Source of the DNA: Hexactinellida sp. DTS-2022
Lineage: Eukaryota; Porifera; Hexactinellida
NCBI GenBank assembly: GCA_028753945.1
Contig: JAPNXP010000001.1
Span: 13,010,501-13,074,500, forward strand
Length of the DNA stretch: 64,000 nucleotides
Direction of reading: 5' to 3'
Below the pieces are notes generated by a model. The model searched no databases and was not told the origin of the DNA. It was given only the letters and a program-made list of their open reading frames with translations. This document shows positions 11,610-57,757 of the stretch, one piece after another. The number at the start of each line of letters is the position of its first letter. Position 1 is the first letter of the stretch. Position numbers and translations under genes: made by a program.

Positions 11610-11614
11610 CTCTG

Positions 11615-25384: not shown

Positions 25385-26642
25385 AATAGTTCATAAACTT
25401 TATAATGAGCTAATTAAATATAGAATTTCTGATCATTATGAGGCAATTATAATTTAATAATTCTGATTTCACATTATAATTCCACATAGTCGTATTACTC
25501 TAGGTATTAAATTTCAAATAATTACGATTATTTACCGAGATACAGCCAAATTATCATTTGTGCAACTTATGCCACTTCATATATTTTTGCTGAAATGACA
25601 TGAAATCCTAATATTATTTAATTTAAAACTTTAGACATATATTTATACTCATTTCAAATTACTTTAAGCAGCCGTTAAAAAGTTACCATACGAATATTCC
25701 GTCTACATTAAATTCCTGTAGTTCAAATAATTTTGTTGGTTAGTGTACACTTACTTGCCAACCATATTCTACAGATAATTGATTTGTTGGCGATTGAACA
25801 TACGTACATAGTTTTAACTACCATTAATTATTCATTGAGAATACTTCTTTTAGTGTGTAAATCCCTAATGTACTGATTAGATTAGATTTCATCTGAATAA
25901 TTCATTATTTGTGGAGTTAAACTATCAACTTTAGGAAGAAAACTTCCCAACACACCATTGAATATTGCAAGTGCATAGCATAATTTGTACTAAGACTTAA
26001 TTAATCTATATCATCTAATTGCATACCTTGATGTATTCTTTGTAAGAATAATTCGGTTAATGAGTCCATTCAGATACCGGAAATGGGGCGACTTTGGTCC
26101 AAACTTAGGTTATTATTCAAAAATATATGTATCGGGTGATCGATCAGGTTAAGATGATCAGAGAAATATAGTTTTGTGTATATTATGAATATACTAGGAA
26201 TTCAAATTTCATATTTGTGAATAGATATGTATGATATTCACAATACATTTGGAATTTAGGCTCAATAATCGAAACGATATCGCAAATAGCTCTTATTTTA
26301 AAATCTCGCTCTTTTTAAGTTAATAAGCTCAAAATTCCAACACAGTATGAATTTACTAGGGCTGTATCGAAATAATAAAGTAACAATATCAATAGGGCTG
26401 AACAAGTATCAATATACTATATTAAATGTATTATCAATTCATTTTGGACCTATTTACTAGGCATACGATTGATTCCAATAATTTCCTGAATTTAATGACC
26501 CTTGGGCAAAAGTTAAACTCATGGGTCTACGTGGCCCCAGTTACTTAGCATGTTCCAACACCAACTTTTCTAAGGGATATACTATACACCGAGTTCTGAT
26601 ATCATTCTGTAATACATTTTGGGAGCTATGGTATATTGCATA
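25385..26642. repeat. Non-coding duplicated block 2
   Basis: Aligns with 46890-48125 in copy B, for example GGGGCGACTTTGGTCC near 26085 and 47588, and CTACGTGGCCCCAGTTAC near 26527 and 48013. No gene is seen. Confidence 0.7.
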
Positions 26643-27157
26643 TCTATATTATTAAAACTCGATTGTTGTTTGTTTGTTTGTTTGTTTGTCCGGATTGTAT
26701 TAAAGTGATGGGGGAATATAAACCGCAATTAATATTGGGATATAATCATATAAACTAACTTTCAAATGTTATAATAGGTAAACAAGTATGCTGAACACGA
26801 ATTTCGCGTTTATAAATTTCTCATATTAATATTTGTTGTTGTTGTTTACTCAAAATAGGTAAACAAATTAATGAAAATTCAAAATCAACCTAGAAGTTTG
26901 CTTTCAACTGGTATTATAGGTAAACAAGTGTGCTGAACACGAATTTAGCATTTATAAAATTCTAATATGAGTATTTGTTGTTGTTGTTGTTGTTGTTGTT
27001 TACACAAATAGGTAAACCAATTAATGAGAATTCAAAATCATAACGTCCCTTTCTATCATTTCCATGTTAGAAAGTGTGAGGAGTAAGGCCGTAAAGGCCG
27101 TTAACTTGAGGTGTGTAGCACCGATCTGTCGCAAAGCGACCGAGACCGAAGGGCTCG
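26643..27157 (+). mobile_element. Non-autonomous Helitron, 515 bp, with empty site in copy B
   Basis: It starts TCTATATTATTAAAAC, with a TTTG microsatellite and two minisatellite units ending in a long TTG run (26971-26999), then the hairpin cluster ending GGGCTCG. Copy B near 48123 lacks it and reads TTGCATTTACATTTATAA across the point of insertion. This shows A/T flanking and no target duplication, and it fixes the 3' end at CTCG. Confidence 0.85.
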
Positions 27158-29538
27158 TACATTTATAAACTGGCTGCCATTAATATACTCGTATAACTAT
27201 TAGTTCTGATTATGGGCATATCTATACATCCTCTACTGAAATAAATTTGATGAAACACATTGTTAGTATAACACCGCTCCTTTCTATGTCTTAATTACAG
27301 TCGCGTTTTAGCCCCGTTTCCCAAAGTACTAACGTTATACAATGAATAGAAGTGTAAATAGGAGATTATTCGAAAATATACAATTGTGTATCTGCTCTTA
27401 GGGCTCTACTAGACGGGTCACTTAGCTATATAGGGAGATAAAATAATCAATTTTTGGTTCAATTGGGGCGATATTCAGCCTGTAGTTAAAGTGAATTCAG
27501 CATAGAGCTAAATAATAGCTAGGATTTCAAAAGGTATTAAAGAATAACTAAAACTTACCATAATTTCGTGCGACAGATTAATATTATTCACATTAATTGT
27601 TTTAATCTAGTAATTAACCAAGAAAATCCATATATTAATAGCCCAATTTTGTCTAATTCTATGTATAAATAATATATTTAATGCGAAACTCAATATTGTG
27701 TATGGAATTTACATATTTGCTGTGTTATTGTGGGATTGGGCTGTATCAACTATAAAAATGAAGAAAACATAACTAATTTCGACGAGATTGATCCATTAAT
27801 TCATGAGAAATTAATTGTGAAGTGGTGCTCATTTCACTACTAGATTTCGCTACTAACTTCACACTCGTATTCTTATTTCCCAGCACTCCAGTTTATTAAA
27901 TTAAGATAATAAAGTCTCATACACTATAGCAAGTATAATTAAATGTATTACAGTGGATGCTGGTTATAAGAACATTCTTTTAAAAATACTCCAGTGTGCG
28001 ATAACAAATTGATATACGTATAATACAATCACACATAATATTCTTTATCCTTATACTCTCGCCCCTAACTTGAGATTGGGAGCCGACTTCCCTCTGTGAT
28101 CCCTGGATCTACGCTTTGCCCTGAAATGGTTTAGCCACTGAGCTAAGTAAGTAACTGTTAGTTATAGTAAAGATAGACACGATTTGTTCTATAATTATTA
28201 TCTCCAACAATTAGTAACAATACTTGTCAATAAGAATTAACAAATTCCGATCCCAGCGATAGTATCATATAACAGGTATCCACTGTATTGCATATCTAGT
28301 TGTAATGGAATAGTGTGGACTGTTCCATCGAATACACTTAGGAATTTCAAACCTTTATAAGAAGTGGAAAATTGAAATACAAGTTTTGGCATTATTGAGA
28401 GATCAACTCTGCAATTACGAATTTTAAAACTACAAAATATGCAATTTTAATAACTAAACTTACAAGCCGTCTACTACCACTTAATTAATTTCAATGCCTG
28501 TGTAATTGAATTTGATGACTTCATTTCAGTTTTAATTTATGTTGGAGTAAATACATTTCAGTTACAGTTACAGTTACTGTTTAGAAAATTTGCTAAAATC
28601 TATTTTATTTGGATTTGAACTGCAGTTCAATTTCTGTTCAGTTCGCAGCACTATAATATGGATGCACTATTAGTCAACACCAAAATATGGTGCCCTGTCA
28701 AAATTTCACAGTTTTAATTTTACTTTTATCACATGATGTAAATAGGCAGCTGAGTATTCTTAAAGTTTGATAAACAAGTAAAATCCGATTTTGAACGTTA
28801 ATGAATTTCATATTTGTGCAAGTTGGGATTGTGATCACTGGTTAACTGGTTTACTGCAAATATTATATTTTAATGGTACATGTTTGTTAACTAGACAAGG
28901 GTCTCAAACTCAAATATATCACGGGTAAAAGTGAATTTCTGATTCTGATTCTTAATATAAGGAATCCAAATATCGCTTTAAAATAATGAGATTCTTCAGA
29001 GATTAATAGAGTATCCGTAAATAATGAATCATTGTGTTCACAAATGTATAAATATATTACTGGCATAAATCCGGAATAGTTTCCAATAAGGAAATAATTT
29101 TCTGGAATAATATCCCTGTTGTTCAAATACTCTTTGTGTTGGTTAGTGTATTTCGATTAGCTTTAATATCGGTGGAAAACAATAAAATTTACACAGAATA
29201 TGAAATTGTTTACTATATTTCAGTAGTAACGCAAACCTATTAGACACTGACCCAAAATATATAATTTATAAACCTTATTCGATCATTGGGGTTACCATAC
29301 AATATAGACAATAACTGCAACTGTAACTGTATTATTAACTCTTATTAAAATTTAATCTTTTTTATAATTTAATCTTAACTCTAACTATGCGTATAATGAA
29401 ATCTTTTTAACTGTAACCGTGACTGGATTTTTGTTTTTCAACTGTGACTCAAACAGAATTTAACCAAATTTTAAAATTGAGTTTGCAGTTCTACCACCAC
29501 AAAAAAAATGTCAGCACAGCTGTAATTTTGAAATTTTA
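27158..29538. other. Non-coding duplicated DNA
   Basis: Parts align with copy B at 48130-48530 and at 52080-52400. Copy B lacks about 1.5 kb between 27977 and 29440 at one of its two partners, where a hAT-like element sits (48534). No gene. Confidence 0.5.
28062..28165 (-). repeat. Possible tRNA-derived SINE fragment
   Basis: On the minus strand TTAGCTCAGTGG is a good Pol III A box. The downstream B-box position (GTAGATCCAGG) fits only poorly. There is no cloverleaf and no A-tail. Confidence 0.2.
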
Positions 29539-29685
29539 CAGTGAACTATCGTTTTAACGACTTGCTTGGGACCTGTAAATTCATTCTTTATCTCCGGATA
29601 TTCGTTATAAGCGGATAATAATTTTAGTGCATTTAGTGCTCTGGGGGAAATCTCCATTTCGGTACATACGACTTCGTCCACTGTA
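29539..29685. mobile_element. TA-flanked MITE, 147 bp
   Basis: CAGTGAACTATCG at the left and CGTCCACTG at the right, with TA flanks. The interior has TTATAAGCGGATAATAA. Related copies lie at about 48898-49020 (truncated) and 52397-52566. Confidence 0.6.
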
Positions 29686-31484
29686 TATCAATTTAGTATA
29701 AATATAATTAATGTGTTACGCAATAATTACTATGTAATCTAAATAAACCAGGTACATATGTACTAACCATATTCTACTGAAATTGGATTCGTATGCGACA
29801 TTGAACACATGTTTGAGGTTTAATTCCCACTAATTATTCAATGAGAGTACTTTCAGTGCCTAACTCCATGCTATACTGATCATAATTATATCTGAATTAT
29901 TCATTATTTGTGGAATTATCTCTAAGTTATGGAATATTACAATATATTTGAGATATTCTCACTAAAATAACAAACTATAATAAGGAAACAACAGCAAACA
30001 GATCATTAGAATGAGTAATACTAGTGGCTTACTAAGCCACCATCAATATTTGATTTTGTCGTGCACTGCTGTTGTTGAGGTTGGACAGTCTGAATATAGT
30101 GGGCCAAAATACTTTTAGCCGTTTAGTGTATTTACATTAGTAGATGCTTCAACTTGGATATTTTACATAAAAAGACGTTAAAGTGTAATAAAATAGCAAA
30201 TCTTTTGAATCTTTTTATGAAGCTGTAAGCGAATATTGTGTCGGCATTAAAATCATATTGTTCAGATACTTTTGGCTGATTAGTGAAAGTAGAACATCGA
30301 TAATAAATAAGGGGAGACTGGAGAAATATGTTGGCATTGTCGGAAATTTCTATTGGCCGTCATAATGTCATAGTAGTTATCATGCATTAATTTGTATATT
30401 GGCTAAGGGAATTAAAATTTGTACTTAACCGAAAAGTCGCCATCATGCCTTTTCTATTTCGGCGACTGATTTTGGAGGATTGTTTGTTTGTTGAAAGTTG
30501 TATTATATTTCAAAAAGTCATCCTATCAGCCATACTTGATTGCTTTTAAGCAGTTGCAGTTCTTTTCATCTTATCTTTGGGATTTGGCACTCTACGTACC
30601 TCCCACGTCTAAGATCAGCTACTAGCTATAGTTAAATTCCCATGTACTATATACGTATCGAAAATATTCAAATTCAATATAGTGCATCTTAATATAGTGA
30701 CACTTTATTATTGTGATTCACTTAATAAAGGGCCGTATATGACAGTGAGAAAGCCAAAAACGTAGAAGGCCGAAATATAATATTGATTCGATTTTCAGCC
30801 AAACTTTCACTCAAATCAACAGCCAATAAAACTTTCTAGTGGCGACCATATACCGTATTCACTCGAACAATCGCCCTCCTCCTAAGCGATATAAAATTAA
30901 AACCCAAATTAAATGCTAAATAGACCTGCATTTAACTAGGTAACTTGGAAAATCCGGAAATTTTTTATAATACAACACCAGATGAGCACTAAGGGGATTT
31001 GTTTAACGGAATAATAGTGCTTAAAGTATTTCCTCAAATAGAAAATAGCAATAAATACGATAACAAATTAATTTCAATCTATATGTTTTGGACAAAGTGG
31101 GTCATCCTATGCACGAATATATGTCAATATATAACAGATATATTTGTAATGTAGGCTATTGATTAAGTGTAAATGAATTTTTGATGTTGTGTAAAAATGA
31201 GACGAAATATATCAAAAATGGAATGGAAGCTTCTGGTAGAAAATATTAGATAAGATCCCAAACCCGATCCTAGTATGTAAGTGAATCTACACTCCGATCA
31301 CAATCCTTAAAAAACGATCGCTATAAAAATGATAGATAGAAAACTCTTATGCCCCATGTATTATGACTTTATGAGTAAATATTAATTATCACATTGGTTA
31401 TAGACCACCTTTTGAGTATGTATGTAGATAAGAATTATCCTAACTTTATTTTAACAAACGCTTTATTTGTGTAGAATTCCGGAT
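29686..31484. other. Non-coding DNA upstream of NLR-A
   Basis: No gene. A CCGTATTCACTCGAACAATCGCC MITE end lies near 30850. Just before the coding start, TTATTTGTGTAG at 31463-31474 is a reasonable splice acceptor followed 10 bp later by the ATG. Confidence 0.4.
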
Positions 31485-34400
31485 ATGGCAATCGAAGAGC
31501 TATCTGCCTTAACGGAACTAACCAACAAATTAACATCCGAAGAAATAATACGAATCAAGAATGAAATCGGTATCCCAGAAGGATTGTGTGAAGATATAAC
31601 TCAAAAATCGAATTTCCTAATCGCAATGAAACAATGGAAAGGTAGAGACGCCTACAAGTTCTATCTGGCTCTACAGCACATCCGACCCGACTTGTCAGCA
31701 ATAGCTTGTGAAGTGAAGTGGCTATGCGACTCATCCCCAGGAGAAACCGAATTCCAAGAGGAGGAACTGTCAATCAAAACTCTAATCAATCTACTGAGAG
31801 ATGAAATCCCTATGGATAAATGGACGTTAATATACATAACTCTGATAAATGAACCAATTGAGAATATCAGTTTTGAAATGGCCATGAACAAACTGTTGGA
31901 AAACGGATTTATTCAGAAAGACCTGAAAGAACTAACAAGGATCCTGGTGGGAATCCAAAGAAATGACGTGGTTGTACAATTGAAGGTCTACATTACTTTA
32001 TTCTCGAAAATGCAGGAAGGGGAGTTTGAAAGCAAATTCAAAAAGGAAATCGACAAACAAGCAAAAGAACTGGAACAATGGGAAATGAAACTAAGAGCGT
32101 TTGCAAAATTACAATTCGAGAATATTAAACAAATGATTGGAAAGGATAAATTGGTGAGCCTGGAAAGCGTATTTGTTGATTTGACAATTTTAAAAGAGGA
32201 ACCCAGAGAAATAAACATGGAGGATGAAACGACCTATAATGAAATTGCATACCTCAGAAAAATTGCAAATAAGGAGGTAGAAATAACGCCTGTCGATTTT
32301 ACAGAAGAATTATTAGCGTTTGATGCTGCAAAGCCTGAAATTTGGTGCATAATCGGGAATCCGGGATGCGGTAAGACATTCTTGTCAAAGAGAACTGCTC
32401 TCAGATTCAGTCACAAAGAATTAGTCGGAATTCGATACTCAATCTCGATTCCCTGTCGCGACACTAACTGGCACTCAATAGAGTCGACACGATATGATGA
32501 TGCAGCAGAAATTGAGTCAGAATTCATCACAAAATGGCTTTGTTTAGGCTTGCCAAATGGCGCCAATTGGTCAAGGGACCTAGCTAAACACCTGGCAGGG
32601 TCAGATGGTGATGGCCTCACATTGATAATAGACGGGCTGGATGAATTTACCAAAAAGATACCTTTCGGATGCACATTCTTATGTTCGTTATTAACACGAA
32701 AATCGCTAACAAAATCAACGATAATTCTAACAACGCGACCTGGGGCTTGGACCGTCATATCCTCTACAAACGAACTGATCATAGACCGCTATTATCAGGT
32801 GCTGGGCTTCTCGCCAGAAAACAGGGACCTATATTTCCAAAAACAGATTACAAGCGAACGCAAACTGAGGGAATGCTTTAACCTAATGGAGCGACATGAC
32901 GAAATGAAACAGCTCTCTCTAATCCCTGTAAACGCATCGTTGTTCGCGGCACTATTGAAAGGAGAGGATTCTACCTCCATTAATACGCTAACAAAGCTCT
33001 ACTACGAATTAGTACTGTATATGATAAGGAGAGAACTACTAAGAATGGGCCTAAAGGAGTACTCTCGAGTCTCACGCATTTCAAACCTCCACACAGACAT
33101 ACTAGCCTGCCTGCATAGAATAGGATTCATAGCAATCCTCGGAGTGGCAAACAGAGATCTGGTATCGGAAGAGACAGTAACTCTCAATTTGGGACAGGAA
33201 GAATACCCATGCCAGTGCTTAGGTCTAGCTCACGAGCACTACCGAAAGGAATCCGTCGGACTTATGAAACAAGTGTGGACATTTGTCCACCTGACTATGC
33301 AGGAGTTCGTATCTGCCCTCTATTTGGAACACACTAGCTGGATTAAGCAGTGCTACAGTGTTAGGTATATTTCCCACTCCGAGGCCAACTTATCTCTATT
33401 CCGAATGGTAGTCAGGTTCCTCTGTGGACTCCTGTCTGATAAGGCAGCCGCTCTTCTTTCCATCCTATACAGGTACCTGACTCCTCAGCCCATTCAGATA
33501 ATCGATATGCCGATGAGCTATCAACTTAGGTACACTGGTTTGTATCACCATGAAGGTTGGAATCTATTTACCAAAATATATTTCCAATTAGCCTCAATTT
33601 TATTCGAGACTAACTCAGATTCAATTCCTTTTTGGTTCAATAACTTCAAACAACATTTTCCGATGCCAGTGTACCTGTATGTACTAGAATCCGTCTCTCC
33701 AAATGAATGGATTTGTTTTATTCAGACTCTCAAACTCGTTTGTCGAATTCAACTCATTTATATCGACACTACTCATATCAATCCGACTCAATTCCACTCT
33801 TTGATCCAGGAAATGGGAATCTGTTCCATTAATTTATTAGCATTGCGCTTCTATCAGAAAGATTCCACTACAGTCCTATCGTATACCGAAACAATTAGAG
33901 AGATAGGAATTAAGTCTGACACTAAAATTAGTATTGAGCTATCCGTCTGTAATTTCAGTGCTGAGACAGATGTTATTCTCTTTCCTACGCCAACCAATCA
34001 GATTACCGACAGCTTGAGACTAGCTGTGAATAAATATTCACATAAAGCTCTTCAGGAATTAACCAATCTATTCTCTGCTATTCAATGCTTATTTGTTAGG
34101 GAATCTGAAACTAATTACGTCACTATGGTACCAGCTCTGTGTCAGGTGACACAATTAAGAGTATTACACCTCTATAAGATTCCTTCTAAAAACATTCCTA
34201 GCTTAACAGCTGTGCTACCTCAATTCTCTAAGCTACAAGAGATTGCATTCACTAATGCCTCACTGCTACCTGCAATTACTCATCTGTCAAATCTAACTTA
34301 TCTACAGATACGAGATTATACACCACAAGACACAACTCTCTGTGATTATTTGTTACAGATTATTAATGGGAACAGACGCTCATTAAGAGGAATGGAATTG

Positions 34401-34826
34401 TGGAATTTGCACGATATTGGATTGAATAATTGGAGTTTGCTTCTCAATTGTTTGCAACTTTGCACTAATTTAGTTCAGCTAAAGCTATGGCGAATTAATC
34501 TACCATTTAATGACGTCACTCACTGGAGTAGCGCTGTTAAACAAATGAAGTCTTTAGTTGAGTTGGAATTACAGTGGGTCTCCCTCTCTGACACAGGATT
34601 ATTATCTCTCTGTGAAGGCCTGATATACCATCCTGCTATTAGAAGTCTAGAGCTAGGAGGCTGTAAGCTGAGTTCTCTATCCTGTGAGCCTCTAGCTAAC
34701 CTAATACCAACTGTCTCACAGCTGGAGACACTGAGAGTCGATGGACTATCTGAACCTGACAGAGATCCTATCTCATTACTCAAGGAAACAGCTGATGAGT
34801 TTGGTATTGAGCTTCAGCTGCGGTAA
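31485..34826 (+). CDS. NLR immune-receptor-like protein A (death-fold-like, NACHT, LRR)
   Basis: A single exon of 1113 residues. The ATG at 31485 is chosen because it aligns exactly with the start of the paralogue at 53564; the frame upstream has only a TTG. Residues about 1-90 and 100-200 look like two helical death-fold-type domains (WKGRDAYKFYLAL, then ELTRILVGIQRNDVV, a DED/CARD-like pattern). A charged helix follows. The NACHT ATPase has Walker A GNPGCGKT at 291-298, Walker B LIIDGLDEF around D383, and TTRPGAW near 420. The helical region has VHLTMQEF at about 601. C-terminal leucine-rich repeats occupy about 870-1110. Family role: cytosolic sensing of microbial or danger signals and oligomerisation. 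Ligand and partners are unknown. It may be expressed from the upstream mini-exon module. Confidence 0.9.
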   Translation: MAIEELSALTELTNKLTSEEIIRIKNEIGIPEGLCEDITQKSNFLIAMKQWKGRDAYKFYLALQHIRPDLSAIACEVKWLCDSSPGETEFQEEELSIKTLINLLRDEIPMDKWTLIYITLINEPIENISFEMAMNKLLENGFIQKDLKELTRILVGIQRNDVVVQLKVYITLFSKMQEGEFESKFKKEIDKQAKELEQWEMKLRAFAKLQFENIKQMIGKDKLVSLESVFVDLTILKEEPREINMEDETTYNEIAYLRKIANKEVEITPVDFTEELLAFDAAKPEIWCIIGNPGCGKTFLSKRTALRFSHKELVGIRYSISIPCRDTNWHSIESTRYDDAAEIESEFITKWLCLGLPNGANWSRDLAKHLAGSDGDGLTLIIDGLDEFTKKIPFGCTFLCSLLTRKSLTKSTIILTTRPGAWTVISSTNELIIDRYYQVLGFSPENRDLYFQKQITSERKLRECFNLMERHDEMKQLSLIPVNASLFAALLKGEDSTSINTLTKLYYELVLYMIRRELLRMGLKEYSRVSRISNLHTDILACLHRIGFIAILGVANRDLVSEETVTLNLGQEEYPCQCLGLAHEHYRKESVGLMKQVWTFVHLTMQEFVSALYLEHTSWIKQCYSVRYISHSEANLSLFRMVVRFLCGLLSDKAAALLSILYRYLTPQPIQIIDMPMSYQLRYTGLYHHEGWNLFTKIYFQLASILFETNSDSIPFWFNNFKQHFPMPVYLYVLESVSPNEWICFIQTLKLVCRIQLIYIDTTHINPTQFHSLIQEMGICSINLLALRFYQKDSTTVLSYTETIREIGIKSDTKISIELSVCNFSAETDVILFPTPTNQITDSLRLAVNKYSHKALQELTNLFSAIQCLFVRESETNYVTMVPALCQVTQLRVLHLYKIPSKNIPSLTAVLPQFSKLQEIAFTNASLLPAITHLSNLTYLQIRDYTPQDTTLCDYLLQIINGNRRSLRGMELWNLHDIGLNNWSLLLNCLQLCTNLVQLKLWRINLPFNDVTHWSSAVKQMKSLVELELQWVSLSDTGLLSLCEGLIYHPAIRSLELGGCKLSSLSCEPLANLIPTVSQLETLRVDGLSEPDRDPISLLKETADEFGIELQLR

Positions 34827-34879
34827 CTTCTCATCTCTGCTAATAAGGTTTGTATTCACTTTATTATCTGTTAATAATG

Positions 34880-35000
34880 TCTACCCCGCATAATCGGGTC
34901 ACTTTGGTCCGAGGATAATTGACAAGATTAAGCGGAGAAATCGATAAACCGAAAGTATATTATTTAGAGGTTCTTTATTTATTGTATGCAGTCATACACG
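34880..35000. mobile_element. ACTCCGC-type MITE remnant in NLR 3' flank
   Basis: CTACCCCGCATAATCGGGTC and a later ATTAAGCGGAG form a short degenerate inverted pair. The same remnant follows the second NLR gene near 56955, so it predates the duplication. Confidence 0.45.
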
Positions 35001-35337
35001 TAATATCCTATAGTATAGACCTTATTATACGTACATCTTTTATTGGATAAGTATTACGTATAATACGCATAATGTAATACGTTTTATACATATACCATAA
35101 TTAATATCCCGCTCTTTGAATTTGCTTTGAGCAACTTTCGGTTTATTGATATTCTTTTTTTTAAAATCGACTCATAGTTTAGCCTGTATGTACAAATTTG
35201 ATTATTTGCTGTCTCTTGTATTTACAACAATATTTATAAATATACTACTCAATTTATTTTGAAAACATCCCTGTTTCCCTGGTTGTTCATAGATTTAGTG
35301 TATAATACGTACTGATGGATAGCGTATTGCGTTATAA

Positions 35338-35700
35338 TTAAGATTGAAACCGCTCGAACCGAATATCAGTATTCATGAATAGCCCTACCGAATACGAATA
35401 CTGATAATATTCGTTTACATCAACCGAATACCAGAGAATTATCCAGGTGCACGATACGCTCCTTTTTGGAGTATTATTAGGAAAAATAGCTATTAGGAGC
35501 GCGAAAAATAGGAATCTTCTCATATACCGTAACATTAATTTGTGTTCTAAGCGTAATTACAAATGGCTGTATAAGACACTGTCGAAAACGAACACTGTTA
35601 GTTTTCGGTCGGGAGATCTAATCAGGTTGGAAACAAAATATCGACTATTCGGCAAATAATATTCGGTTCAACCAAATATATCAGTATTCGGTCTTAGGTT
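35338..35700. mobile_element. hAT MITE, relative of 1747-2120
   Basis: The left end GATTGAAACCGCTCGAAC and internal TACCGAATACGAATACTG phrases match the 1747-2120 element. The termini have decayed and no clean 8-bp duplication is visible. Confidence 0.5.
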
Positions 35701-35861
35701 ATACGTAAACTAACTGCCAAATTTAGACTCAAATAATATAATTTTGATCCAATTACACGAACATTTTTGTATCATTAGCTTCTAGTTGCATAATTTTCTT
35801 CCTAAACAAGACGGTTGACTTCATTAACCACTAAAGTATTTGTTTCCATCATCATTATCCA

Positions 35862-36225
35862 TGTAACTGTTTATATAGTTTGCTGTTGTTTACAACATTC
35901 TATACCGAATTTCCATTTGACTCTGAGTGATATTTAACTTCCACTAACAGTTCTATAAGAGTCATTAACCACTGCATCTATATTTACCTAACAACTGCTA
36001 TACAGATAGTTATTAGCCACTTGGTTAACCACTCCCTCTGTTTGATACCTTCTCTGTCTCCTCTAGACTACATCTCGTATTCCTCTCCTCTCCAGTCTCC
36101 CTCTCGTTCTCATCTGTTTATTCGTATTTGGAACTAACTTTAGTGTTTATTTGTGTATTCTCTTGTTTGTATTTATCAATAAACACTCTCTCAATTGAAT
36201 TGTGTTCGATTTTACTGAGTCTACA
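35862..36225 (+). repeat. LTR-like block (possible solo LTR), copy A
   Basis: About 364 bp running from TGTAACTG to GTCTACA, with AATAAA near 36179 followed by CTCTCTCAATTG. The TG..CA ends and a polyadenylation signal near the 3' end suggest a solo LTR, but no target duplication is visible. It could instead be a 3' exon of the NLR transcript, since it follows both NLR genes. Confidence 0.4.
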
Positions 36226-38008
36226 GTATATTAATTACTAGCATAAGTGTACTTCAGTGGTTCAGAACCTGAAGGCATGGAACCCTTAAGTATACACGAA
36301 AGGCTGTAGGGTGTCCACAATATGTATTACAGTTAATGGGAGGGATCCACAGAATGACTATAAGGGAGCACTTTTGGAAAATGTTGGGAATCTCTACTGT
36401 AATCACCCACATTATAATACTCACTCATCTATTGAGTTGATAGAAACTAATCAGTGTTTAGGGATTAGAAGCGAAATATTACATTAACTCGCTAACTCTA
36501 ATTTGCAGCATGACAATTGGTAGCACTTCCCATAGCTCGATACAAATCCAATTCTAACCCAATTTTTATTATTCGTAACAGCGACGTTAGTCACGAGAGC
36601 TCATGTGTGGAATCTGAAGTTAATATAACAGCTGTTTCTCTGGGAATAGGCAGAGCATTAATCGCTTCTCAAACTTGGAAAGCGGAGCGAACCTAAATTC
36701 AATTGTAGCCAGCTTCCGTCTTCATAATTGAGCGCTCTTTTTCGATTCCTTTTTACTATCAATTAGGGGCAATATACGTTTGAAAGAATATATGAAAAGG
36801 TTTCTACCATGTGAAATATCAATTAATGCACTCATACTGTATTTGCCAACCTATGACAGCTAATTTCCCTAATTTACATACTACTTTAATTTCTAAGGTT
36901 TCGCTCACTCGGTGTTTATATGAATGCCTAACATTAAATTGAGAAATGGTTTACACTGCCTGACCATGATATACAGTCTGCTTACCCAATGCTTGCGTTG
37001 TTATTGGAATATTTCTAAAGTTGCTGGCTAATAATTGTGCGAGAGATCGTACATTTCCCAATTATCCAACTGATCAATAGAACTTTTCAAAAGTATTCGA
37101 TAACATAGGACTAAGATCCAGAAATTAGTTAAATGAACTTTACAATACGTCCAAGAAAACGAATTAATCTCCTTATTAGGCAGGATATGTAAACAGTAGT
37201 TCTAAATAGAAGTCCCTCCATCTTACGTTATTAAATTAGAAATGAAACGAATATTCGAAATGAAACCAAGGAATTATCCAAGAGAATGAGACGCTCCTTT
37301 TGGAGTATGATTTAGGAAGAAAAAAATATGAGCGGGAAAATTTGGAATCCTTTCCTATACTGTAACACTAATTTGTAATTTAGGTGTTTGAAAATTGTAT
37401 CAGACCAGGAATAGGAGCATATTTACAAATGGCATTGAATGAAAGATTATTCGAAATGCAACGAATGCATTTTCGAATAATCGATCTTTGAGATGCCAAA
37501 GGATTAAATCAAATTTAGACATTAATCAACTAGTTTAGGTCGGAAAAATAGTTACGATCCCTCCAATCAATACAAAATAAATATATTGTATTGTTATTGT
37601 ATAAAGAAAATCTATAATTACAGCTGTGCCGATATAATTTTGAGAAGGAGACACTATTAATAAATCTACGAAAATATAGTGCCTCCAAAGGATCTGTTCC
37701 CGGCACAGCTGTAATCTTAGATTTTGTGTATTACAAAATGGCAAAAACGTGATGTTGGGATATACGTTAATGTTTCTTTACATAATCAACAATTTTTTCT
37801 GCATACCTAGATTCAGTATGAGCTCACCCATGCGTCTAAATTAATCAATTAAAATTGACACTTTTGTAGTATCTCTCGATTCTCGGATGTCTAAAAATTT
37901 TTAGTTCAAGTTTACGAGCCTGGTTGACCTGGCCGTACTATCAAGTTCCAGAAACCAGAGTATTAAATAAAATACAACCAAGATATATTTGAAAAGGCAT
38001 GTGTTTGG
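36226..38008. other. Non-coding duplicated spacer
   Basis: Aligns with 59195-60960 in copy B. It contains a hAT-like end near 36252 (CAGTGGTTCAGAACCTG) and TATTCG-rich MITE sequence at 37235-37500. No gene. Confidence 0.5.
37607..37727. mobile_element. Short palindromic MITE, copy A
   Basis: Inverted arms AATTACAGCTGTGCCG and CGGCACAGCTGTAAT lie within AAAATCT..AGATTTT. It is shared with 60609-60731, so it is older than the duplication. Confidence 0.65.
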
Positions 38009-38082
38009 AATACAAGCTAGGGCCGAAGGCCCGAGTGCGAGTTGTAAGAACGCGCGTAGAGCGGACGAGCAGCTTGCAAAAA
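38009..38082 (-). repeat. 70-bp GC-rich hairpin element
   Basis: AATACAAGC at one end and AGCTTG at the other enclose GGGCCGAAGGCCC and GCGGACGAGCAGC. An inverted copy with cleaner ends (AATACAAGC/GCTTGTATT) lies at 45048-45117, and a diverged part at about 61440-61490. Confidence 0.55.
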
Positions 38083-38236
38083 CTAAGTTAGTAAGAAAGT
38101 GAAAAGGTTTATTAAATAAATATGAAAATAGAGAAAGTACAGATAACAGAGTAGCTATACGAGTATTGGAATATAAGAGAGTCCATGGTTAGTGGTTAGC
38201 CTATACTGAGTATACAACAGCAGATAGCTGCACAGC

Positions 38237-39253
38237 CTACAGATGGGTATCTGCTATAGAGATACGTCTCTTGGAGAACACCTCTGCCCGAGAGCCCTCG
38301 GACCGAGTGTAGGAGTCCCCCTCTCCCTCCCCTGCCTCCAGCGTGTACAGGAGATCCTCAATCTCCGGGTCCTCCGAGTGCACAGCGCTGCTAGGCGCTA
38401 CCTCAGAGGGAGGGTAGCTGTCCCCGACAACCGAGGAGGCAAATGGAATGCTGGGGTTCGCGTATATCTTATCTTCCATGTAGCTAGGCGGCCCCATAGC
38501 CTGGGAGACATCGACATTCATTGGAGAGACAGGGGTCAGAGCGGTGTTCATCTCACTCACGTCTTCCTGTGGGTAATACGACTTCTTGCGGGCCACAACG
38601 AATATGTACACAACGCTCACTCCATACACAACCACAATATACACAGCTAGCGCTACCTGTGCCAGCATGGCTGCTATTAGGATGTACAGCGGTCCCGCTA
38701 TAAGGTGGATAGCAGAGAAGAGCCATGCTACGCCTATCAACAGGAACAGCAGGAGCAGCTTGAATATCTCTCTGGTATTCTGAGAGGTGAAATATATGTC
38801 GTCATACTTGAGATCCTCGTTACTGGAGGTGCCAGTCAACAGGAACAGCAAGCAAACACCGACTATAGAGAGAGCCAACAGGCCTACGATAGGAATAACA
38901 GTTGTGACTATGGATACCGACAAAAGAGGGATAAAGCATAGGTCCCCGTTAGCATGCACATCTCCATACACCAGTGCCCATTCATGTCCCTGTACGAACC
39001 GAACTATCAACAGAGTCAGTAGCACTACAATCCCTGGAGTCAACCATGCAAAGATACACAGGTGTGTATATACAGCTAGGGATACCAGTGGTATGAACCC
39101 TCTCCCAGCAAGAAGACTGAGTCTGACATACGACTGGTCTCGTGTGGAGGGACACACGGACAGTACGGTATAGGTAACATGGTATCCACGGCATACCATG
39201 GTTGTCAGGTTACCCTCCTGATGAGCCCTGATATGTGAGAATACCGCTCTCAT
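38237..39253 (-). CDS. Adhesion-GPCR-like membrane protein, C-terminal part
   Basis: An open frame of 338 residues on the minus strand. Hydrophobic segments lie at about 52-86, 107-140, 163-185 and 188-222, with no TM1-TM2. FAWLTPGIVVLLTL resembles TM4 of adhesion/secretin receptors, and IGVAWLFSAIH resembles TM6. The tail of about 115 residues is acidic and Ser/Pro-rich (PPSYMEDK, EDPEIEDLL), consistent with a cytoplasmic C-terminus. No GPS domain or ectodomain is encoded here, so this is either the last exon of a larger gene or a 5'-truncated copy. The codon before the first Met follows a possible AG acceptor. A polyadenylation signal (AATAAA on the minus strand, 38108-38113) lies 123 bp past the stop. 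Its partner in copy B is a pseudogene. Confidence 0.65.
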   Translation of the reverse strand: MRAVFSHIRAHQEGNLTTMVCRGYHVTYTVLSVCPSTRDQSYVRLSLLAGRGFIPLVSLAVYTHLCIFAWLTPGIVVLLTLLIVRFVQGHEWALVYGDVHANGDLCFIPLLSVSIVTTVIPIVGLLALSIVGVCLLFLLTGTSSNEDLKYDDIYFTSQNTREIFKLLLLFLLIGVAWLFSAIHLIAGPLYILIAAMLAQVALAVYIVVVYGVSVVYIFVVARKKSYYPQEDVSEMNTALTPVSPMNVDVSQAMGPPSYMEDKIYANPSIPFASSVVGDSYPPSEVAPSSAVHSEDPEIEDLLYTLEAGEGEGDSYTRSEGSRAEVFSKRRISIADTHL

Positions 39254-46355: not shown

Positions 46356-48533
46356 AGTAAATTTCTTTGTATTATCTATATATTCACTATAATTGTACCG
46401 ATATACATTTGCATCAATCTTAGTAGGGAAATCTTTATCATCATGCCCTGCATTATTTGCTGTACAATCTAAAATCTGCTAATTTAATTATTTCTAAAAA
46501 TATTATTTCTTTTTGGAGTGTTTAAAGTTAATACATACTCCGGTGCTATTACACAATACGTATACTGGTAAGATTTGTCATTGAGCCATCAACTTTAACA
46601 AGAATGAATAATTTGGCTGTTTTAACTCTGATATTGCACAGTTAATTAGTCGAGAAATAAATCCTTTAACCGAATTACTTGTTCATGGAAATACATACAT
46701 GTAAATCTATCCAATTTGGTTTGAAAAATGGGTATGTACACTAATCCGGCCAAAAGTATTTGAAGAACAATAATTTTATGAATATATTCCAGCTTTTAGA
46801 GGTAAAATTACATTTGTTGATGCTTCAATGTAAAACGATAGTTAAGGTATAAAAAATAGAAAAAATTTGAATTTATATTTATAGAGGTATTAAGCTCATA
46901 AACTTTATAATGAGCTAATTAAATACAGAATTTCTGATCATTATGAGGCAATTAAAATATACAAATTCTGATTTCACATTAGAATTCCACATATTAGGAT
47001 TACTCTAGGTACTTAATTTCAAATAATTACGATTATTTACTGAAATACAGCCATTTTACCATTTGTGCAACTTATGCCACCTCATGGATTTTGGCTGAAA
47101 TGATATGAAATCCTAATATTATTTAATTTATAACTATAGTAATATATTTACTCATTTCAAAGAATACTTTAATTAAGCAGCCGTTAAAAAGTTACCATAC
47201 GAATATTCCGTCTGCATTAAAATTCCTGTTGTCAAATAATTTTGTTGGTTAGTGTACACTTACTTTCCAACCATTCTACAGATAATTGATTTGTTGGCGA
47301 TTTGAACATACATAGTTTTAATTACCATTAATCATTCAAATTGAATACTTATTTTAGCGTGTAAATCCCTAATACAATGATTAGATTAGATTAGATCTGA
47401 ATAATTCATTATTTATGGAGTTAAACTATCGACTTTAGCGAAAACTGCCCAACACCACCATTGAATATTGCAAGTGCATAGCATAATTTGTACTAAGACT
47501 CAATTAATCTATCTCATCTAACTGCGTACCTTGATGTATACTCTGTAAGAATAATTCGGTTAATGAGTCCATTCAAATACCGTAAATGGGGCGACTTTGG
47601 TCCAAACTTAGGTAATTATTCAATCAGGGTAAGATGATCAGAGAAATAGTATAGTTTGTGTATATTCTGAATAACTAGGAATTCAAATTTCATATTTGTG
47701 AATAGATATGTATGATATTCACAATACATTGGGAATTTAGGCTCAATAATCGTAACTATATCGAAAATAGCTCTTATTTGAAAATCTCGCTCTTTTTAAG
47801 TTAATAAGCTCAAAATTCCAACACAAGTATCAATTTACTAGGGCTGTATCGAAAGAATAAAGTAAGAATATCAAATTATCAATAGGGCTGAGCAAGTATC
47901 AATATATTAAATGTATTGTCAATTCATTTTGGACCTATTTACTAGGCACACGATAGATTCCAATAATTTCCGGAATTTAATGACCCTTGAGCAAAAGTTA
48001 AACTCACGGGTCTACGTGGCCCCAGTTACGTAGCATGTTCCAACTCTAACTTTTCTAAGAGATATGCTATACACCGAGTTCTGATATTATTATGTAATCC
48101 ATTTTGGAGCTATGGTACATTGCATTTACATTTATAAACTGGCTTAACATAAATGGTTTGAATCTAGTATTATATACAATAAAATATATTAATAGCCCAA
48201 TTTGGTTAAATTCAATTTATAATTAATATATTTAATTCGAAACTCAATATCTTATATGGAATTTTCTTTTCCAAATTTGTGGTGTCATTGTGGGTTAGGG
48301 ATTTATCAATTATAAAATGAAGAAATCCGCCACACAATTTAACGTGCACAACTAATTTCTGCAAAATTGATCCATTAATTTCCGAGAAATTAAGTGTGAA
48401 GTGTTGCTCATTTTTCGCTACTAACTTCACACTCGTATTCGTATTACCCAGCACTCCAGTTTATTCAAATAGAGATAATAAAGTCTGATACATTATAGCA
48501 AAGTATAATTAATTGTATTACAGTGGATGCTGG
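46356..48533. repeat. Non-coding duplicated block, copy B
   Basis: Aligns with 22300-23850 and 25385-28000 of copy A but lacks the hAT MITE of 22484 and the Helitron of 26643. No gene. Confidence 0.7.
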
Positions 48534-48818
48534 CAGTGGTGTACCGCCTATGCGCTGAGACTCGGCAGAGCGAGGGCCCACTCCTCAGGCCCCGCGGCCG
48601 TGACACTGTGATAATACCACTTACGACAATGTGCCACATTTATATGGGATTAGTATTGCCATTACCAATAGAATACTTCCTGCTAATCCCACTATTTAAC
48701 GCTGTATATGTCACAATTAGTTACAATCCAGACAATCTGTCTTGCGTTTCGCAGTTCACACGTAAGGGTCCCCATCCTTTTAATCGCCGAGAGGCCCAGG
48801 CACCTCCGTACGCCACTG
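48534..48818. mobile_element. hAT-like element, 285 bp
   Basis: The ends CAGTGGTGTACCGCC and GTACGCCACTG fit hAT termini. The left flank GATGCTGG is not repeated on the right; the right flank instead matches copy A about 1.5 kb further on, so a deletion removed one side together with any target duplication. Confidence 0.6.
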
Positions 48819-51263: not shown

Positions 51264-51271
51264 ATTGTAGT

Positions 51272-53563: not shown

Positions 53564-56500
53564 ATGGATTTCACAGAGTTAAATACGCTTTCGGAATTCG
53601 GAAACCAGATAACGCTACAAGAAGTCAAACGAATCCAAACTGCAATTGGAATGCCGGAAGCATTGTGTGTCGGTGTATCAGACGGCACAGATTTCGTGTA
53701 CGCAGTGAGAGAATGGAAAGGACACAATCCATTTCATTTCTATCAAGCTCTAACTAGCATTCGGCCAGACCTTGTGTTGCTAGCTTGTAAGGTCCCATGG
53801 CTTTGTGTATCGTCTGCAAGTGAGTGTGCCCTTCAACAAGAAGAACTCACAATAAAGACTCTAATCGATCTACTCAAAACCGAAATAACCAAGGGTAAAT
53901 GGAGACTAATTTACATAACAGTGGCTAAATCGACAAAAGAGGATATTGGGTTTGAAATAACGTTAAACAAACTGTTAGAATCGGGTCTAATTCATAAAGA
54001 TCTAATCCAGCTGTCGAGAATACTTGAAGGAATCCAGAGAAATGATCTAGTGGACAAACTGACTGCCTATAAACGGATATTTTCCGGAATGGAAGAGGGG
54101 GAGTTCGAATGGAAATTCAAACAAGAAATTAACACACAGGCAAAAGAGCTGCAACAATGGGAAGAAAAGCTGAAAGAATTCGGTCAGATACAATATGGGA
54201 AAGTACAACAAATGTTAGGCAGTGATGAAACAGCGAACCTTGCTCATGTGTACATTGACCTTACAATCTTAAAACAGAAACCTAAACCCATAGACCTTAA
54301 AGACGAAACGACATACAACGAAATCGCATTTTTAAGGAAGATTGCTAATAAAGAAATTGAAATTAAGCCTGTTGATTTTACTGAGGAAATCAAATCGTAT
54401 GAGCCTACAAAGAATGAAATATGGTGCATCATAGGCAATCCGGGTTGCGGCAAAACATTCCTAGCAAAGCGAACAGCACTAAGGTTCAGCAGCAGCGAAC
54501 TAGTCGACATCAAATACTCCATCTCAATACCATGTCGCAACACTGACTGGCATGCAATGGAGGCCACACGATATGAAAACGGGTTAGAAATAGAAAAGGA
54601 ATTCATCAGCAAGTGGTTGTGTCTGGGACTACCAAAGGGAGCAAACTGGTCTAACGATCTCGCAAAGCACCTCGCAGGTTCTGATGGAGAGGGACTCCTC
54701 ATCATAATAGACGGACTGGACGAGTTTCCGCAAAAGGTTCCCTTTGAAAAGACCTTCCTATGCTCTCTACTGACCCGTCAATCCCTCACAAGATCAACAA
54801 TAATTCTAACGAGTCGACCCGGCGCATGGACTAACATCTCCTCTGCAAACGAACTGATCATAGACCGTTACTATCAGGTGCTGGGCTTCTCGCCAGAGAA
54901 TAGGGATCTGTACTTCAAAAAACAGATAACGAATGAGTCAAAACTGAAATATTGTTGGCAGTTAATGGAGCGACACGATGAAATAAAGCAACTATCCCTA
55001 ATTCCTGTAAACGCATCGTTATTCGCGGCACTATTGAAAGGAGAGGATTCTGCCTCCATTAATACGCTAACAAAGCTCTACTACGAATTAGTACTGTACA
55101 TGATCAGGAGAGAACTAATAAGAATGGGCCTAAAAGAGTACTCTCGAGTCTCATGCATTTCAAACCTCCACACAGACATACTAGCCTGCCTGCATAGAAT
55201 AGGATTCATAGCAATCCTCGGAGTGGCAAACAGAGATCTGGTATCGGAAGAGACAGTAACTCTCAATTTGGGACAGGAAGAATACCCATGCCAGTGCTTA
55301 GGTCTAGCTCACGAGCACTACCGAAAGGAATCCGTCGGACTTATGAAACAAGTGTGGACATTTGTCCACCTGACTATGCAGGAGTTCGTATCTGCCCTCT
55401 ATTTGGAACACACTAGCTGGATTAAGCAGTGCTACAGTGTTAGGTATATTTCCCATTCAGAGGCTAACTTATCTCTGTTCCGAATGGTAGTCAGGTTCCT
55501 CTGTGGACTCCTATCTGATAAGGCAGCTGCTCTTCTTTCCATCCTATACAGGTACCTGACTCCTCAGCCCATTCAGCTTATCGATATGCCGATGAGCTAT
55601 CAACTTAAGTACCGTCCTTTGTATCACCATGAAGGTTGGAATCTATTCACCAAAATCTATTTCCAATTAGCCTCAATTTTGTTCGAAACTAACTCGGATT
55701 CAATTCCATTTTGGTTCAATAACTTCAAACAACACTTTCCGATGCCAGTGTATCTGTATGTACTAAAATCCGTCTCTCCAAATGAATGGATTTGTTTTAT
55801 TCAGACTCTCAAACTCGTTTGTCGAATTCATCTCATATTTATTGACACTACTCATATCAATCCGACTCAATTCAAATGTTTAATACAGGAAATGGGAATC
55901 TGTTCCATTAATTTATTAGCATTGCGCTTCGACGCACAAGATTCCACTACGGTCCTAGCCTATACAGATACAATTAGAGAGATAGGTATTAAGTCTGACA
56001 CTAAAATTAGTATTGAGCTATTCCACTGTGATTTCAGAGCTAAGACAGATGTTATTCTCTTTCCTACACAAACCAATCAGATTATAGACAGCTTGAGCCT
56101 AACTTTGAATATATATTCACATAAAGCTCTTCAGGAATTAACCAATCTTTTTTCTGCTATTCGATGCTTATATGTTTGGGATTCTGAAACTAATTACGTC
56201 ACTATGTTATCAGCTCTGTGTCAGGCGACACAATTAAGTGTATTACACCTCTATAAGATTCCTTCTGAACACATTCCTAGCTTAACAGCTGTGCTACCTC
56301 AGTTCTCTAAGCTACAAGAGATTGCATTCTATAATGCCTCACTACTACCTGCAATTACTCATCTGTCAAATCTAACTTATCTAAAGATACAAGATCGTAC
56401 ATCAAAACGCACAACTCTCTGTGATTATTTGCTGCAGATTATTAATGGGAACAGACACTCGTTAAGAGGAATGGTTTTGTTCAATTTGCACGATATTGGA

Positions 56501-56905
56501 TTGAATAATTGGAGTTTACTTCTCAATAGTTTGGAAGTTTGCACTAATTTAGTTCAGCTAACGCTATTTGACATTACTCTACCATCTAATGACGTCACTC
56601 ACTGGAGTAGCGCTGTTAAACAAATGAAGTATTTAGTTGAATTGCAATTCTTTGAAGTCTCCGTCTCTGACACAACATTATTATCTCTCTGTGAAGGCCT
56701 GATATACCATCCTGCTATTAGGAGTCTAGTGCTATTCAACTGTGAGCTGACTTCTCTATCCTGTGAGCCTCTAGCTAACCTAATCCCAACTGTCTCACAG
56801 CTGGAGACACTGAGAGTAACTGGACTATCTGAACCTGACAGAGATCCTATCTCATTACTCAAGGAAACAGCTGATGAGTTTGGTATTGAGCTTAAGTTGG
56901 ATTAA
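53564..56905 (+). CDS. NLR immune-receptor-like protein B (death-fold-like, NACHT, LRR)
   Basis: Also 1113 residues in one exon, collinear with the gene at 31485 with no net length difference. The N-terminal domains (VREWKGHNPFHFYQAL; QLSRILEGIQRNDLV) are clearly homologous but diverged. Walker A GNPGCGKT lies at residues 291-298, with LIIIDGLDEF and TSRPGAW in the NACHT. From about residue 440 to 660 the two proteins are nearly identical, including a stretch of about 300 identical bases (55157-55456). The LRR region differs mainly at strand-surface positions, for example LTLFDITLPS against LKLWRINLPF. The 5' flank is unrelated to copy A and contains a MITE. Intact and probably functional; ligand unknown. 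Confidence 0.9.
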   Translation: MDFTELNTLSEFGNQITLQEVKRIQTAIGMPEALCVGVSDGTDFVYAVREWKGHNPFHFYQALTSIRPDLVLLACKVPWLCVSSASECALQQEELTIKTLIDLLKTEITKGKWRLIYITVAKSTKEDIGFEITLNKLLESGLIHKDLIQLSRILEGIQRNDLVDKLTAYKRIFSGMEEGEFEWKFKQEINTQAKELQQWEEKLKEFGQIQYGKVQQMLGSDETANLAHVYIDLTILKQKPKPIDLKDETTYNEIAFLRKIANKEIEIKPVDFTEEIKSYEPTKNEIWCIIGNPGCGKTFLAKRTALRFSSSELVDIKYSISIPCRNTDWHAMEATRYENGLEIEKEFISKWLCLGLPKGANWSNDLAKHLAGSDGEGLLIIIDGLDEFPQKVPFEKTFLCSLLTRQSLTRSTIILTSRPGAWTNISSANELIIDRYYQVLGFSPENRDLYFKKQITNESKLKYCWQLMERHDEIKQLSLIPVNASLFAALLKGEDSASINTLTKLYYELVLYMIRRELIRMGLKEYSRVSCISNLHTDILACLHRIGFIAILGVANRDLVSEETVTLNLGQEEYPCQCLGLAHEHYRKESVGLMKQVWTFVHLTMQEFVSALYLEHTSWIKQCYSVRYISHSEANLSLFRMVVRFLCGLLSDKAAALLSILYRYLTPQPIQLIDMPMSYQLKYRPLYHHEGWNLFTKIYFQLASILFETNSDSIPFWFNNFKQHFPMPVYLYVLKSVSPNEWICFIQTLKLVCRIHLIFIDTTHINPTQFKCLIQEMGICSINLLALRFDAQDSTTVLAYTDTIREIGIKSDTKISIELFHCDFRAKTDVILFPTQTNQIIDSLSLTLNIYSHKALQELTNLFSAIRCLYVWDSETNYVTMLSALCQATQLSVLHLYKIPSEHIPSLTAVLPQFSKLQEIAFYNASLLPAITHLSNLTYLKIQDRTSKRTTLCDYLLQIINGNRHSLRGMVLFNLHDIGLNNWSLLLNSLEVCTNLVQLTLFDITLPSNDVTHWSSAVKQMKYLVELQFFEVSVSDTTLLSLCEGLIYHPAIRSLVLFNCELTSLSCEPLANLIPTVSQLETLRVTGLSEPDRDPISLLKETADEFGIELKLD

Positions 56906-57757
56906 CTTCTCATCTCTATAATAAGGTTTGTATTCACTTTATTATCTGTTGATAATGTCTACTCCGCTTAATTGGGTCACTTTTGTCCGAGTATAATTTG
57001 ACAATATTAAGTAGATAACTCTATAAAACGAAAATATGTTATTTTGAGGTATATTATTTATTGTATGTGCTTACTTCCAGAACATGAATCACGAGCATGG
57101 ACAATATGCGAAATTGGGCAATTATGTTATTGCCCATAACATATATATACATTAGGTACTTAGCTGAAACTATTTACCAAATATTTACCCTCTTAATATC
57201 TTAATTAGTTTTGTAAGCGAATACTTTTAAAATTAAACAAAATATTTGTAATATTTCCAAATTTAGACGTGAATAGCAATACTTTGACCTCACCTGTTTT
57301 ATGACAGTAATTACTAACATGACAGACTTACTACCTCTATTACTAGTACCTTGGATGTTCTCCTTACATGACAGAATTACTACCCTTTAATCATGACTTG
57401 ACTTTTACTATGCACTTTTAATGGTTTCTTTCTTTCTTCTACTTGACTAAATACAAACAGTAAGTATTCAATAAAGGAAATATTTAATTGTATCTTTAAA
57501 AAGTTTATTGAATTTGACTTGCTCAATCATCTATATAATTGACATTTCCACATCCGCCTTCCCGGTATCCATTATTCACTAGGTTAATATGTATGGCATT
57601 GTGAACGGTATAGCAAATAGATAATTAACTGTCATACAACAGACCCAATTAAACCAAAAATTAGTAATGACTTATATTTGAAGATTTTGTTCCTAGAAAA
57701 TGACGGTTGACTCCATTAACCATGGAGTTAAATGCATTTGTTTACTACGACTATCTA
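56906..57757. other. NLR-B 3' flank
   Basis: The first about 120 bp match the 3' flank of NLR-A, including the ACTCCGCTTAATTGGGTC MITE remnant. The rest is unmatched AT-rich DNA without ORFs. Confidence 0.5.

Follow-up and report, generated by a model that had tools for sequence, protein, structure and literature searches.

As described in the sections cited here, the NLR-B30.2 genes of zebrafish (NLR, nucleotide-binding leucine-rich repeat receptor) form a large family that lies mostly on one chromosome, their NACHT and recognition domains have separate exchange histories, and positive selection acts on B30.2, which is argued to be the recognition module rather than the leucine-rich repeats (LRRs) (PMC4852459). 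In the highly variable NLRs of plants (hvNLRs), according to the cited parts of their description, the LRR surface carries residues of high entropy, which in one example occupy repeat positions 3, 5, 7 and 8; entropy peaks agree with positive selection in RPP13, and exposed aromatic residues are mentioned (PMC8226289). For Podospora and other fungal NLRs, the sections cited locate sites under positive selection in the repeat domain, on its concave face (PMC4986451). Bona fide sponge NLRs are characterised in the cited sections of a 2026 survey as NACHT plus LRR proteins in large, species-grouped expansions, some with an N-terminal CARD or DEATH domain; the term 'positive selection' is absent from its main text (PMC12909245). 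Here we analyse two NLR genes, A and B, in a stretch of 64,000 nucleotides (the window) from the sponge Hexactinellida sp. DTS-2022, located at positions 13010501-13074500 of contig JAPNXP010000001.1 (C1), together with their paralogues in the same genome (G000; 112.4 Mb, 18 contigs). In this family, residues at LRR positions 5, 7 and 8 undergo replacement at about five times the rate seen in silent or flanking DNA.

Both A and B are uninterrupted NACHT-LRR open reading frames (ORFs) with LRRs of the ribonuclease-inhibitor type, and B lies 22 kb downstream of A. The following features were compared:

31467..34826, + strand: NLR ORF A, open frame of 1119 aa, likely start ATG 31485 (residue 7).
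53564..56905, + strand: NLR ORF B, 1113 aa, paralogue of A, 78% identical.
33747..34823, + strand: LRR domain of A, residues 761-1119, 14 motif repeats, placed by motif register and model strands.
55826..56902, + strand: LRR domain of B, placed by motif register, model strands and a profile match.
34383..34742, + strand: in-frame part of A that drew attention to the family, codons 973-1092, repeats R9-R13.
56462..56821, + strand: its counterpart in B.

An earlier sequence-only reading had aligned the last two stretches by hand and counted about 23 replaced codons and about five silent differences. This count is exact for the 120 in-frame codons. The span it gave, 34382-34744, starts one base out of frame (the frame begins at 34383), but the difference counts within it hold. 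As it had also noted, many replacements involve multi-base changes: two or three bases are changed in ten of the 23, among which are the five quoted examples. The replacements sit where that reading had placed them, at variable strand positions, with 12 of 14 codons replaced at motif positions 5, 7 and 8 compared to 11 of 106 elsewhere (Fisher P 9.6e-9). Its statement that leucines and loops are unchanged applies to the loop NDVTHWSSAVKQM and nearly applies to the leucine core, in which two of 42 positions (motif positions 1, 4 and 6) differ between A and B (T847I and L1035F). With the repeat register set by the LxxLxLxx motif, positions 5, 7 and 8 defined as surface and position 10 excluded from both the surface and the scaffold class, 28 of 41 surface codons and 31 of 305 scaffold codons are replaced between A and B over the whole LRR (761-1119; P 2e-15).

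The pattern of replacements extends beyond this pair to further paralogues. At least 41 of 306 candidates from a protein search of the genome were scored, at least 30 of these 41 on C1; an LRR-only search gave at least 93 scored of 195 candidates and a Pfam NACHT search at least 94 of 149. The loci used comprise 30 from the protein search, three further ones and eight of a distant clade, which is 34-35% identical to B in the LRR. Eleven of the 41 protein-search hits were given no locus, two of them being taken in part later (L031, L033). The near-copies L002 and L021 were dropped from entropy, pair bins and association tests, and L014 and L015, with a truncated or frame-shifted end, from the latter two. 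Of the remaining 29 sequences, 12 fall outside the close clade (dS of the middle part to L001 of at least 0.3). L033 was dropped from the site model due to its long branch, and L031-L033 wherever the N-terminal part or flanks were needed. The distant clade was used without L034 and L037, both near-copies of L038. The LRRs are collinear across the family, the alignment having 1141 columns for a reference of 1119 residues.

Some copies in this sample stand out individually. In-frame stops occur in the otherwise full-length copies L005 (codon 798), L026 (codon 217) and L030 (codon 405), which are probably decaying members. L001 and L002 (C1:13041967 and C1:13350528) are near-identical, lie 309 kb apart and differ at two codons in 481-1119. 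Their likeness, and that of L020 and L021, is due to recent duplication or exchange, or to assembly duplication.

Pooled over 14 close copies, the replacement divergence (dN) of the surface is 0.605, the silent divergence (dS) of the scaffold 0.112 and the divergence of the 3' flank 0.128 (Jukes-Cantor, JC). Surface dN thus equals 5.4 times scaffold dS and 4.7 times the flank divergence, and the dN/dS ratio (w) above 1 that the sequence-only reading expected at strand-exposed sites with more paralogues was found. For A and B alone, the values are 0.639 for surface dN, 0.110 for scaffold dS and 0.052 for scaffold dN, and w ranges from 0.57 to 2.22 in 60-codon segments over 781-1119. Of the ten pairs listed, nine have a surface w between 2.3 and 14.6. 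When 406 pairs (29 sequences) are binned by dS, surface dN amounts to 0.55 for dS of 0.06-0.09 and to 0.60 for dS of 0.15-0.2; two pairs with dS below 0.06 have a median of 0.31. The pair L027/L029 is evenly diverged along its length (dS 0.119 in the N-terminal part, 0.093 in the middle, 0.082 in the scaffold), with w of 0.17 in both the N-terminal part and the middle, yet surface dN is 0.635, so that an artefact of exchange is not needed to explain the excess. Purifying selection acts on the N-terminal/NACHT half and on the helical middle, and the rate of change in the LRR scaffold does not exceed the silent rate.

Codon by codon, a FUBAR-style grid model (own implementation, 16 close copies) gave a posterior probability (PP) above 0.95 for positive selection at 39 of 560 codons. 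These are made up of 24 of 41 surface codons, nine of 305 scaffold codons and one of 130 in the upstream middle (Fisher P 6e-19), plus three at position 10 and two in 690-760. Mean beta/alpha values are 7.8/1.24 for surface, 0.76/0.99 for scaffold and 0.33/0.68 for the middle. When the model was rerun on a star tree, 28/41 surface, 19/305 scaffold and 2/130 middle codons were called; in null simulations on a star tree without recombination (omega 1 and 0.5, five runs each), none of 346 codons was called in any of the ten runs. The suggestion of a diversifying receptor family, made from the two copies, is supported by this result. The distant clade (six distinct of eight sequences, 15 pairs) shows a surface dN of 0.502, with dS of 0.105 and dN of 0.042 at other codons, and three or more residues at 28 of 41 surface but 11 of 305 scaffold codons.

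Entropy follows the repeat. In 31 sequences (33 minus two near-copies), motif positions 5, 7 and 8 average 1.95, 2.64 and 1.97 bits, position 10 1.14, position 9 0.80 and positions 1-4 and 6 0.27-0.52 bits. Six or more residues occur at 52 of 639 codons (481-1119), with a maximum of 12; 43 of the 52 fall in 761-1119 (30 motif-surface, ten scaffold, three at position 10). In R9-R13 of the 31 copies, these are codons 977, 979, 980, 983, 1006, 1008, 1009, 1034, 1036, 1037, 1062, 1064, 1065, 1067, 1090 and 1092. An AlphaFold model of the LRR of B has a mean pLDDT of 64.7 (50-89 in ten-residue blocks of the LRR part, below 50 at model residues 1-70 and 174-178). It predicts a strand in all 14 motif repeats, covering positions 3-7 in seven, 3-6 in three and a longer stretch in four, and one extra strand without motif at 735-739. 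Since the predicted strands span motif positions 3-7, positions 5 and 7 would alternate with 4 and 6; the former pair averages 7.64 residues, the latter 2.00. In Foldseek, the model matched several LRR proteins, among them TIR1, NLRC4 and ribonuclease inhibitor, with a query TM of about 0.5-0.65 and an rmsd of 4.7-8. The surface positions are rich in Tyr (13.3% vs 2.6% in the N-terminal part), His, Asp, Arg, Trp and Asn, and poor in Leu, Ile and Pro. Rich content of Tyr, His, Asp, Arg, Trp and Asn is typical of binding surfaces.

The predicted exposure of the changed strand positions would also fit relaxed constraint, under which LRR surface residues matter little and drift, and the scaffold w itself is often near 1. 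Drift, however, gives a dN no higher than dS, which is far from the five-fold excess measured against both scaffold and flank, and the surface composition is strongly skewed to Tyr, His, Asp, Arg and Trp. We therefore regard relaxed constraint as hardly credible.

The two halves of the receptors differ in history. Silent divergence between A and B is near or at saturation in codons 1-480 (at least 0.9 in every 60-codon segment) and 0-0.22 in codons 481-1119. The domains and modules concerned are:

32343..32849, + strand: NACHT domain of A, residues 293-461 (Pfam PF05729, E 7.8e-15, above cut-off).
54422..54934, + strand: NACHT domain of B, residues 287-457 (Pfam PF05729, E 4.5e-17, above cut-off).
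32904..34988, + strand: C-terminal module of A, recently shared, beginning near codon 480 and ending some 160 nt beyond the stop.
54983..57067, + strand: recently shared C-terminal module of B, delimited by silent divergence, changepoint and homology end.

In A, the module consists of the helical part and the LRR, and homology between A and B stops near 34990. Among 15 sequences, 78 pairs combine an N-terminal dS above 1.2 with a C-terminal dS below 0.16, and the changepoint lies at codons 480-489 in 47 of these 78 (non-independent) pairs. A C-terminal module reaching from about codon 480 to past the stop has been recently shared (dS about 0.1) among saturated N-terminal halves. Low C-terminal dS despite the saturated N-terminal/NACHT part means that sensor and switch have separate histories. 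The nearest relatives also differ between N-terminal part, middle and LRR in six copies listed; those of A are L003 and L004 in the N-terminal part (dS 0.04 and 0.07), L009 (B) in the middle and, the near-copy L002 aside, L008 in the LRR. L019 differs from L020 and L021 at 35 and 34 codons in 481-1119, none of them past codon 814, and its identity beyond that codon is a recent exchange tract. L020 and L021 have no differing codon after 630, yet are different upstream.

Low C-terminal dS might alternatively reflect constraint on silent sites instead of recent sharing, in which case omega would be inflated; the onset of the drop near one place, codon 480, would suit this explanation. Sequence past the stop is, however, about as similar (JC 0.128), although this yardstick comprises 42 nt with a donor-like motif and is perhaps itself constrained. 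Beyond the stop, similarity to A continues: in 24 of the 29 other loci the first alignment block extends for 32-282 nt. The block reaches 679 nt or more in L002 and L006, is limited to nt 50-100 in L024 and is missing from L022 and L030. We consider silent-site constraint highly improbable; like relaxed constraint, it was tested and is unlikely. The donor-like motifs lie in the following places:

34845..34849, + strand: splice-donor-like AAG|GT after the stop of A, in the 3' untranslated region (3' UTR), putative role.
56923..56927, + strand: splice-donor-like AAG|GT after the stop of B, putative role.

Of 30 paralogous loci, 27 have an AGGT donor-like motif that follows the first stop-codon base by 20-22 nt, which suggests a 3' UTR intron.

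A local mutator or targeted hypermutation acting on the hypervariable codons would account for the multi-base codon changes, for up to 12 residues at one codon, for the independent assortment of these codons and for their second base, with A in 896 of the 1590 copies of hypervariable codons. The same codons show no rise in silent change, however. In the 17 close copies it amounts to 0.094 per silent site (95% 0.036-0.174) at same-residue hypervariable codons and to 0.126 (95% 0.097-0.156) at same-residue conserved codons, the first interval being wide enough to leave room for a modest silent rise. Neighbouring scaffold codons are not raised either, with 0.111 and 0.086 at distances 1 and 2 from a hypervariable codon compared to 0.100-0.198 further off (0.198 beyond eight codons). 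Minority states at third bases comprise 26 transitions and 104 transversions at hypervariable codons but 88 and 83 at conserved codons. Transitions are thus scarce where residue-changing transversions are common, and the predominance of third-base transversions indicates that residue-altering changes are those observed, as selection predicts. The excess of A at the second base goes with the content of Tyr, Asp, His, Asn, Glu, Lys and Gln, and the changes are not adenine-specific, since bases other than A also vary, including G/T third bases at codons 854, 878 and 1119. As silent change is not raised at the hypervariable codons, selection is the better reading, and a mutator appears very improbable. 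Due to the wide interval, hypermutation is rejected less firmly than relaxed or silent-site constraint.

Two known generators of diversity were considered and do not fit the sequence. The codon tables and the third-base spectrum lack the adenine-specific replacement of a diversity-generating retroelement target; a reverse transcriptase or template was not searched for. A somatically assembled receptor of the lamprey VLR type is not indicated, A and B already being full-length open frames in the assembly.

The silent changes beside hypervariable codons also bear on old balanced variation, according to which surface variants are ancient and their surroundings were homogenised by conversion. Low dS alongside high surface diversity fits this possibility, and so does a surface distance that is untied to silent scaffold distance (rho 0.02, 91 pairs) and weakly tied to N-terminal distance (rho 0.27). 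Linked silent divergence would be expected next to the hypervariable codons, but none is seen (0.111 and 0.086 as against 0.198 beyond eight codons), and identical runs hold at most four hypervariable codons except in L019/L020/L021 (L002 left out). Old balanced variation is therefore unlikely, though worth keeping in mind.

Residue sharing between hypervariable codons shows no association at any distance in the 17 close copies (within three codons: ratio 1.07, z 1.2). Copies share 31.7% of surface residues on average, with a pair spread no greater than in permuted columns (P 0.24); the signal of structure is strong in 22 variable N-terminal columns of 14 copies and was matched in none of 300 permutations. 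Some signal does remain on the surface, given its weak tie to N-terminal distance. Shuffling of whole LRR cassettes was rejected on the lack of association and on the lack of identical runs with more than four hypervariable codons outside L019/L020/L021 (L002 left out). The same residue is nearly always encoded by the same codon, with 79 silent differences in 1563 same-residue comparisons. Near-freely shuffled surface codons together with nearly one codon per residue could point to a dedicated germline process that acts on the shared module and swaps individual codons or tiny patches between loci. We give such a process a slim chance.

Taken together, we favour an account in which a selected LRR face, a shared module and exchange between loci yield a diverse recognition repertoire, to which we assign a probability of roughly 0.8. 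Ectopic gene conversion or (unequal) recombination would pass the C-terminal module between loci, and positive selection would then renew its surface residues. Variable ligands, probably of microbial origin, would meet a wide range of concave faces in the inherited receptor set, and signalling would proceed by NACHT oligomerisation as in NLRC4 and NLRP3. The data show the family itself, where the changes lie, omega for each class and the boundary of the module, while the exchange mechanism, ligand recognition and the immune role are inferred.

Several results weigh against this account. L019/L020 has a surface w of 0.39, on only four replacement differences. Scaffold w is often near 1 (0.39-1.29 in the ten pairs listed; 1.01 in L027/L029), and the scaffold is thus not strictly conserved. 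Whole-LRR w is also about 1 (0.82-1.51 in most of the 45 of 435 pairs listed), which confines the excess to the surface class, and whole-domain w in the distant clade is 0.49-0.86 in pairs other than near-copies. Internal stops are contained in three of the 30 loci. The correlation of surface with N-terminal distance, weak as it is, has a nominal P of 0.009 (91 non-independent pairs). Neighbour compatibility within the close clade was not significant in any of three stretches (P 0.38, 0.29 and 0.21), although common silent variants there exceed the number expected on a star tree, and a single burst of module replacement is not separated from ongoing short-tract exchange. Four-gamete failure in about 80% of pairs was not used as evidence because repeated mutation can produce the same.

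The window contains further features around the two receptors. A patchy segmental duplication surrounds both (25388-39158 and 46893-62598), its main collinear flanking pieces being 72-92% identical with unaligned gaps in between. Per 100 nt, the 5' halves of A and B are mostly 60-75% and the 3' halves 87-100% identical. A duplicated ORF, hydrophobic by eye, lies downstream of each NLR (38237-39253, - strand, 338 aa, and 61661-62164, - strand, 167 aa); a Pfam scan of the first copy gave no family above cut-off. A Helitron-type transposon is located at 7242-13102 (+ strand), with Helitron_like_N and PIF1 helicase followed by Pif1_2B and OTU domains in the next ORF, and beside it, repeats spaced about 142 nt apart form arrays at 217-1485 and, in inverted orientation, at 5747-7010. 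A 372-aa ORF at 3688-4806 (- strand) is hydrophobic by eye and has no Pfam match at E<=5. The ORFs 2332-2604 (+ strand) and 3325-3615 (- strand) consist of partly repeated TNYPI units and are probably repeats rather than genes.

The NACHT domain and C-terminal LRRs that define animal NLRs are both present. The NACHT-helical part and the LRR part resemble mammalian NLRC4/NLRP3 and ribonuclease inhibitor in sequence and fold: residues 397-614 of B match NLRP3 chains (best E 6.5e-11), its LRR matches ribonuclease inhibitor (best E 1.1e-16), and a profile built from nine LRR domains finds ribonuclease inhibitors (best E 6.9e-27) and NLRP3 LRRs (7.6e-12). Pfam LRR models scored under their cut-offs. 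For the N-terminal death-fold effector of animal NLRs, which the NLRX class lacks, a DED match below cut-off was obtained in B only (E 0.004). As in the bona fide sponge NLRs of the cited sections, NACHT and LRR occur in a large expansion. Unlike the Podospora NLRs described there, which have TPR/ANK repeats and for which repeat shuffling was considered, the LRRs are collinear. A search of open-licence literature for diversifying selection on hypervariable sponge NLRs matched only fungal work, and we do not claim that the pattern is unreported.

Degnan is said to have posed the specificity of sponge NLRs as a question, in the title of a 2015 paper. The surface residues make this question testable, and the family yields a codon list for testing ligand contact. 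If the favoured account is true, its modular logic joins an old, conserved switch half to a shared, renewed sensor half, and the result looks like inherited recognition diversity under an arms race.

The principle is known from plant hvNLRs and zebrafish NLR-B30.2 genes; the setting is new. Going by the cited sections, the present family resembles the zebrafish one in its clustering, with at least 30 of 41 scored hits on C1, and in the differing exchange histories of NACHT and recognition part. It is unlike it in that the selected part is the LRR face; no B30.2/SPRY domain is found among the Pfam hits at E<=0.001 for A and B. Plant hvNLRs, as defined in the cited sections, are near-allelic series across individuals, whereas paralogues of one genome are compared here, and RI-type LRRs and an animal-type NACHT set the sponge receptors apart. 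The hvNLR threshold of at least ten positions above 1.5 bits is nevertheless exceeded, with 42 of 639 positions (481-1119, 17 close copies), 29 of them motif-surface and six scaffold. Should our account be right, the LRR face of the NLRs would serve this animal, which lacks antibodies, as a fast-evolving recognition surface. The same applies to plants, whereas in zebrafish B30.2 is the selected part.

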